Assembly (NCBI RefSeq): GCF_900105735.1
Contig: NZ_LT629793.1
Span: 6,014,001-6,078,000 of the forward strand
Source: Pseudomonas yamanorum
GTDB taxonomy: Bacteria; Pseudomonadota; Gammaproteobacteria; Pseudomonadales; Pseudomonadaceae
DNA: 64,000 bases
Direction of reading: 5' to 3'
Shown: piece by piece, positions 1,105 to 1,244 of the stretch
How the letters are laid out: the number at the start of each line of letters is the position of its first letter
Position numbering within the stretch: position 1 is the first letter of the stretch
Position numbers and translations under genes: made by a program
The notes under the pieces: model-generated
The model's database searches: none
Seen by the model: only the letters and a program-made list of their open reading frames with translations
What the model was told of the DNA's origin: nothing

Positions 1105-1244
1105 GTCCAACCTTGCAGAATCGGGCTTTACGCCCAGGCAACCGTTCGGACTAGTTTAGAAAAGAACCTGCTTCGACCCATGCTCACTCACGATCTTGAA
1201 ATCTGAGGGCACCACGGTCTGAAGCAGGTGAAAATAATCTTACA
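1105..1244 (-). ncRNA. Candidate IS110 bridge RNA with readable target and donor guides
   Basis: On the minus strand two guide-bearing stem-loops follow one another. The first (1228 down to 1167) has a stem ACCTGCTTC/GAAGCAGGT plus GACC/GGTC. Its loop carries GTGCCCTCA (1212-1204), identical to the left target and core, and GAGTGAG (within 1191-1183), complementary to CTCACTC on the right target. The second (1151 down to 1105) has a stem GTCC/GGAC with AAC/GTT and an inner hairpin GGGC/GCCC. Its loop carries ACGGTTGC, equal to the right end of the element, and TGCAAG, which pairs with CTTGTA at the left end with one G-T wobble. This is the layout described for IS621. Exact 5' and 3' ends are not known from sequence. 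Confidence 0.85.

Follow-up and report, generated by a model that had tools for sequence, protein, structure and literature searches.

An IS110-group element of Pseudomonas yamanorum with a predicted bridge RNA whose guides match its target in a dispersed repeat

The window, by which we mean the whole stretch of 64,000 nucleotides that was analyzed from Pseudomonas yamanorum contig NZ_LT629793.1, carries an IS110-group insertion sequence of 1,113 bp, counted with one copy of its core (134..1246, minus strand), the ends of which were set by comparing occupied target sites with empty ones. The element encodes a DEDD/serine recombinase (transposase) of 313 amino acids (149..1090, minus strand) that matches Pfam PF01548 and PF02371 as well as NCBIfam NF033542, named “IS110 family RNA-guided transposase”, and that aligns along the greater part of its sequence with the chains of ISCro4 and IS621 in solved structures. 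At the positions aligned to D11, E60, D102, D105 and S241 of IS621 (numbered as in PMC11208158) all 5 residues are identical, and the protein combines a DEDD RuvC-like domain with a Transposase_20 domain containing the catalytic serine, as is characteristic of the IS110 family. A CT core, placed by the sequence and by the empty sites, is common to the left end (1245..1246, minus strand), the right end (132..133, minus strand) and the empty target. The left end runs for 156 bases from the core to the start codon, while the right end measures 15 bases; in other words, the element has the long left end with a predicted bridge RNA and the short right end of the IS110 group, unlike the IS1111 group, for which the RNA is reported in a long right end (PMC11208160). 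The genome holds 8 copies, 7 of them with 100% and one with 99% identity across the aligned query, and none has an interrupted reading frame.

The DNA flanking the element, GTGTGCC on the left (1247..1253, minus strand) and CACTCC on the right (126..131, minus strand), agrees with an intact, unoccupied copy of the exact target in the same window, GTGTGCC-CT-CACTCCGGC (51305..51322, plus strand), one of the empty copies that the window contains. All 8 copies share the same insertion point and orientation, in GTGTGCC-CT-CACTCC or, for 2 of them, in its GTTCC variant. Sites of GTGCCCTCACTC with at most 1 mismatch occur 94 times in the genome, against 14 for a reversed control pattern, and 22 inverted pairs among the target sites, spaced 478–594 bases apart, reveal a composite inverted repeat that has a REP-like palindrome at its center. 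Copies of this repeat lie at 33000–33640 and 51270–51910 and are alike over about 640 bases; their central palindrome, TGTGGGAGCTGGCTTGCCTGCGATG, is one that we take to be REP-like. The original prediction had placed the element in a Pseudomonas repeat, which is correct as far as a dispersed repeat goes, but the landing point is more specifically an arm of the composite inverted repeat, outside its REP-like center, and not a plain REP. The composite repeat is possibly akin to R200, a repeat family described from P. fluorescens (PMC2718517). At gathering scores, Rfam gave no match within the element; in the window, to which the Rfam run was confined, all 5 matches to the TwoAYGGAY RNA (RF01731) lie in composite-repeat arms (30–132, 33066–33129, 33517–33579, 51313–51415 and 51788–51850). 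Because these matches fall in the arms, and because the target motif recurs tens of times across the genome, the TwoAYGGAY motif here seems to belong to a dispersed repeat and not to regulate individual genes.

Within the left end we delimited a predicted bridge RNA with a minimal extent of 125 nt (1105..1229, minus strand), which consists of 2 guide-bearing stem-loops and stops 14 bases upstream of the transposase start codon. All 4 guide matches lie where they had originally been placed, within 1112–1212, on the minus strand, which the prediction had left unstated. The target-binding loop (1166..1229, minus strand), whose stems covary, holds the left target guide GTGCC+CT (1206..1212, minus strand), which agrees with the target at 7/7 positions from the fifth left-target base through the core, and the right target guide GAGTG+AG (1183..1189, minus strand), complementary to CTCACTC at 7/7. 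The longer, 9-base left match that had been proposed, GTGCCCTCA at 1204–1212, is real: by comparison with the intact empty target, it covers 5 bases of the left target, the CT core and 2 bases of the right target. The donor-binding loop (1105..1151, minus strand), closed in the fold by GTCC at 1148–1151 with GGAC at 1105–1108, matches the element's own ends by sequence in the window. Its left donor guide, ACGGTTGC (1138..1145, minus strand), is identical to the right end (133–140) over 8/8 bases with the ninth mismatched, and its right donor guide, TGCAAG (1112..1117, minus strand), pairs with CTTGTA of the left end including one G-T; beside the latter, UU at 1119–1120 could pair with the donor AA. 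That such a fit should arise by chance had been called very unlikely, and for this element taken singly that was too strong: a score at least as high as that of the real target pair was obtained with 109 of 20,000 shuffled versions of the element's flanks and with 56 of 20,000 random GC-rich targets, which amounts to a modest probability of about 0.003–0.005 for the target pair alone. The strong support comes from the relatives.

For the comparison with relatives, 173 loci were collected, of which 70 were dropped for want of a recognizable end pair or sufficient flank, and 2 elements (one in genome G197 and one in P. capsici) were added back by hand, leaving 105 elements that were reduced to 45 representatives, namely this element and 44 relatives; a search of viral contigs yielded one relative, lacking the RNA scaffold motif. 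Since the ends of the relatives were located with a donor motif, the donor-side comparison among them is not independent. On the target side, permutation tests and a named structure bore out the covariation between guides and flanks in homologues on which the original prediction was to stand or fall: the target-loop guides match the flanks and change with them. With guide spacing limited to 22–34 bases, a range chosen after an unrestricted run had been seen, each element's own target was tested against the others and beat every dissimilar target in 27 of the 45 representatives, this element included, where about 1 was expected, and was not strictly first in the other 18. The summed guide–target score was 615.5 versus 505.3 (sd 6.6) under permutation (z 16.6), the top of 20,000 permutations being 537. 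Lifting the spacing limit left the own target best in 20/45, and for L008, the window's own copy at a variant target, 3 of the 44 other targets then matched or beat it. Examined position by position in 34 of the 45 representatives (representatives scoring below 13 for fit were excluded, as were two that had been misassigned), the 5 left and 5 right bases around the core track the target and the bases beyond do not; the guide footprint of the target is 5+CT+5. The 9-base left match therefore stands as an identity in this element, but both target guides are effectively 5+2, as the terminal CA (1204–1205) does not covary across the family. We had considered this CA extension as a family feature and rejected it, because 335 and 2,610 of 3,000 permutations reached the observed match.

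The same relationship is found when only the RNA scaffold is used to read the guides. For the 32 representatives that could be anchored in this way (the remaining 13 of the 45 have no scaffold motif), the guides matched 271 of 320 target bases versus 112.5 (sd 9.7) under permutation, with 151 as the highest of 10,000 permutations, and the own target was strictly best in 24 of the 32. The scaffold motif was learnt from elements with guides fitted to their targets, so that this test is not wholly independent, whereas the out-of-sample test is. The latter drew on elements that the earlier tests had not used and started from 53 loci, made up of 34 readable and distinct elements, 5 duplicates, 4 that lacked a left end and 10 that lacked the scaffold motif; the left target could be taken from 27 of the readable elements and the right target from 7. 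Guides matched 91/135 left-target bases versus 48.0 (sd 4.9, highest 69), with only 1 of 5 bases matched in 4 of the 27 elements, and 30/35 right-target bases versus 12.0 (sd 3.6, highest 30), a result that at least one permutation equaled.

The predicted fold is conserved for the target loop, as judged from an alignment of 24 of the 45 representatives. Its stems, one of which joins 1221–1229 to 1166–1174, comprise 17 pairs and have 95.6% of the cells in the alignment paired; 11 of the 17 pairs show changes on both sides, and there are 64 such cells versus 16.9 after shuffling (reached in 0 of 500 shuffles). RNAalifold, run unaided, recovered the identical 17 pairs. In the minimum-energy fold of the single sequence (z −2.6; 2 of 200 shuffles as stable), the two target guides instead pair with each other. 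The description of the guides as exposed in 2 stem-loops thus fails for the single-sequence fold and agrees with the fold that covariation supports, which has an open internal loop. The handshake nucleotides lie at positions described for IS621, including nt 81–82 (PMC11208158). The handshake guide of the target loop, CA (1181..1182, minus strand), lies in the register of those two nucleotides and is complementary to the donor TG before the core; its C is invariant in all 24 aligned sequences. In the donor loop, the handshake guide is GU (1110..1111, minus strand), of which the G can pair with the target base preceding the core. This first position is Watson–Crick with the target base in 41 of the 45 representatives, which none of 20,000 permutations reached, while the second position gave no signal (11/45; 6,145 of 20,000 permutations did as well).

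A 5′ stem-loop does not fit into the left end, where the first stem is preceded by 17 bases that form no hairpin in this element. Transcription of the RNA may start upstream of the left end; the best sigma-70 promoter at the circle junction scored 9/12 and does not stand out, as 98 of 500 shuffles reached this score. Such 5′ stem-loops are reported to be conserved in IS110 bridge RNAs, and their deletion in IS621 lowered RNA binding but only slightly reduced recombination (PMC11208158), for which reason we did not treat the missing stem-loop as disqualifying. The scaffold motif lies at 26 bases here and at 24 in the P. capsici relative, compared with 44–87 in the 28 anchored representatives other than these two and L066 and L048. 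Two distant relatives, L066 and L048, also have a short stretch before the target loop, with the scaffold motif at 31 and 36 bases; under a constrained fold, L066 lacks a 5′ hairpin and L048 has one of 6 pairs. From these short stretches and folds, the 5′ stem-loop may have been lost more than once.

The P. capsici relative, with 80% protein identity, has a similar RNA scaffold but different guides and a different target. Between it and the present element, 11 of 17 guide positions differ versus 12 of 106 others (Fisher 5.8e-6; 17 columns were omitted from either end of the alignment). The guides of the relative fit the different site at which it lies, GGTTC-CT-TCGCT, the right flank of which is only 8 bases long (contig end). 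Within the element's own clade, by contrast, the guides are unchanged in all 15 insertions (8 in this genome, 6 in genome G188 and 1 in G197); the sites have 0–2 mismatches on the left and 0–1 on the right, with 1 left mismatch in three of them, 2 left in one and 1 right in two. A relative with 92–93% protein identity on the P. antarctica plasmid pP27494_1 (L119/L267) has 2 stop codons in its reading frame; its target guides are unchanged, and its site resembles the same composite repeat. We tentatively suggest, with somewhat less than even confidence, that this clade represents a naturally pared-down, compact bridge-RNA system of about 125 bases, without 5′ stem-loop and with a symmetric 5-CT-5 target code, which nature has retargeted by changing little beyond the guides (the P. 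capsici site versus the Pseudomonas composite repeat) while keeping the scaffold and the donor code.

Taken together, these results support the original bridge-RNA interpretation, and we consider it very probable that this is an IS110-group element whose left end is transcribed into a bridge RNA that guides its own recombinase to a 12-base target in a dispersed repeat. By analogy with IS621, from which we carry over transcription, a circular intermediate, RNA binding and strand exchange, the left end would be transcribed into the bridge RNA, and the RNA-guided recombinase would join the element's ends to the 12-base target (5 bases, CT, 5 bases). On the left side, the GTGCC-CT of the target loop would likely bind the bottom strand, and on the right side its GAGTG-AG the top strand. 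Strand exchange by the recombinase would take place at the CT core with the help of the handshake nucleotides.

A left end that serves solely as a structured 5′ leader regulating transposase translation, with coincidental guide matches, would suit an RNA that stops 14 bases before the start codon, and ISPpu9 provides a precedent, as the 5′-untranslated region of its transposase and small RNAs are reported to regulate expression (PMC8450116). Yet the guides vary along with the target on a scaffold that is retained, and a leader has no reason to track flanking DNA, which makes this explanation highly improbable; the left end may nonetheless be a leader as well as a bridge RNA. Slighter still is the probability that the protein picks the target and that the RNA stretches are copies of flank sequence picked up from it, even if the transposases of IS1397 and ISKpn1, which insert at one point of a repeat, are thought to choose their site themselves (PMC1525189). 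Copying would not be expected to produce matches that are sense for the left piece, antisense for the right one and fixed in their register on the scaffold across the 32 anchored representatives, nor the handshake pairing. The bridge RNA could also be real in an element that has ceased to move in this genome; the identity of 7 of the 8 copies and the open frame in all of them point to recent movement, so that we regard immobility as unlikely, though less so than the two preceding explanations. On the bridge-RNA interpretation, the code reaches a further Pseudomonas lineage and a further family of repeats, and the guides of such elements are largely readable from sequence alone. In addition, this element and its P. 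capsici relative form a natural pair in which near-identical scaffolds carry different guides for different targets, and a 125-base RNA without 5′ stem-loop would, if active, be a useful compact scaffold.

Our literature search, which did not extend to ISfinder, returned no paper plainly about this element, but several described systems resemble it. As reported for IS621 (PMC11208160, PMC11208158), the element has the IS110-group layout, the CT core, 2 loops with 4 guides and an 8-base left donor guide; the two are also alike in a G facing T at donor position 12 (the non-canonical G161-T12 pair of PMC11208158), in the handshake positions and catalytic residues, and in having a repeat as target. 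They differ in that the transposases are distantly related (phmmer E 2.1e-35), that the right target guide is 5+2 here versus 2+2 in IS621 and the left 5+2 versus 7+2 (PMC11208158), that IS621 targets REP and this element a composite-repeat arm, and that there is no room here for the 5′ stem-loop; right target guides longer than that of IS621 have already been reported (PMC11208160). Among solved structures, the ISCro4 recombinase (PDB 9t56) is the best match (E 1.3e-38, from the chain sequence only). Pseudomonas IS110 elements that land in repeats were described in 2006 (PMC1525189): ISPpu10, ISPpu9 and ISPa11 likewise insert at one point of an extragenic repeat and, by their descriptions, are set apart by targeting REP, whereas this element targets another repeat. 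Of the catalogued IS110-group elements, 85.7% have a predicted bridge RNA, and those of ISPpu10 and ISPa11 were among the predictions whose loops were inspected by hand (PMC11208160). IS110 elements at REP-like sites in Pseudomonas genomes G262, G310, G156, G010 and G362, with about 39–42% protein identity, resemble this element in their donor guides and in their donor ends (CTTGTGT / ACAGTTG) but differ in target loop and target: their right target guide (RTG), TGTGGGAG in G262, G310 and most G156 copies or AGTGGGAG in G010 and G362, fits CT-CCCAC. RNA-guided target choice within the same family has likewise been reported for the seekRNA of IS1111 and IS110 elements (PMC11187229). The element is thus clearly a well-supported addition to the bridge-RNA systems already known and does not constitute a new kind of system.
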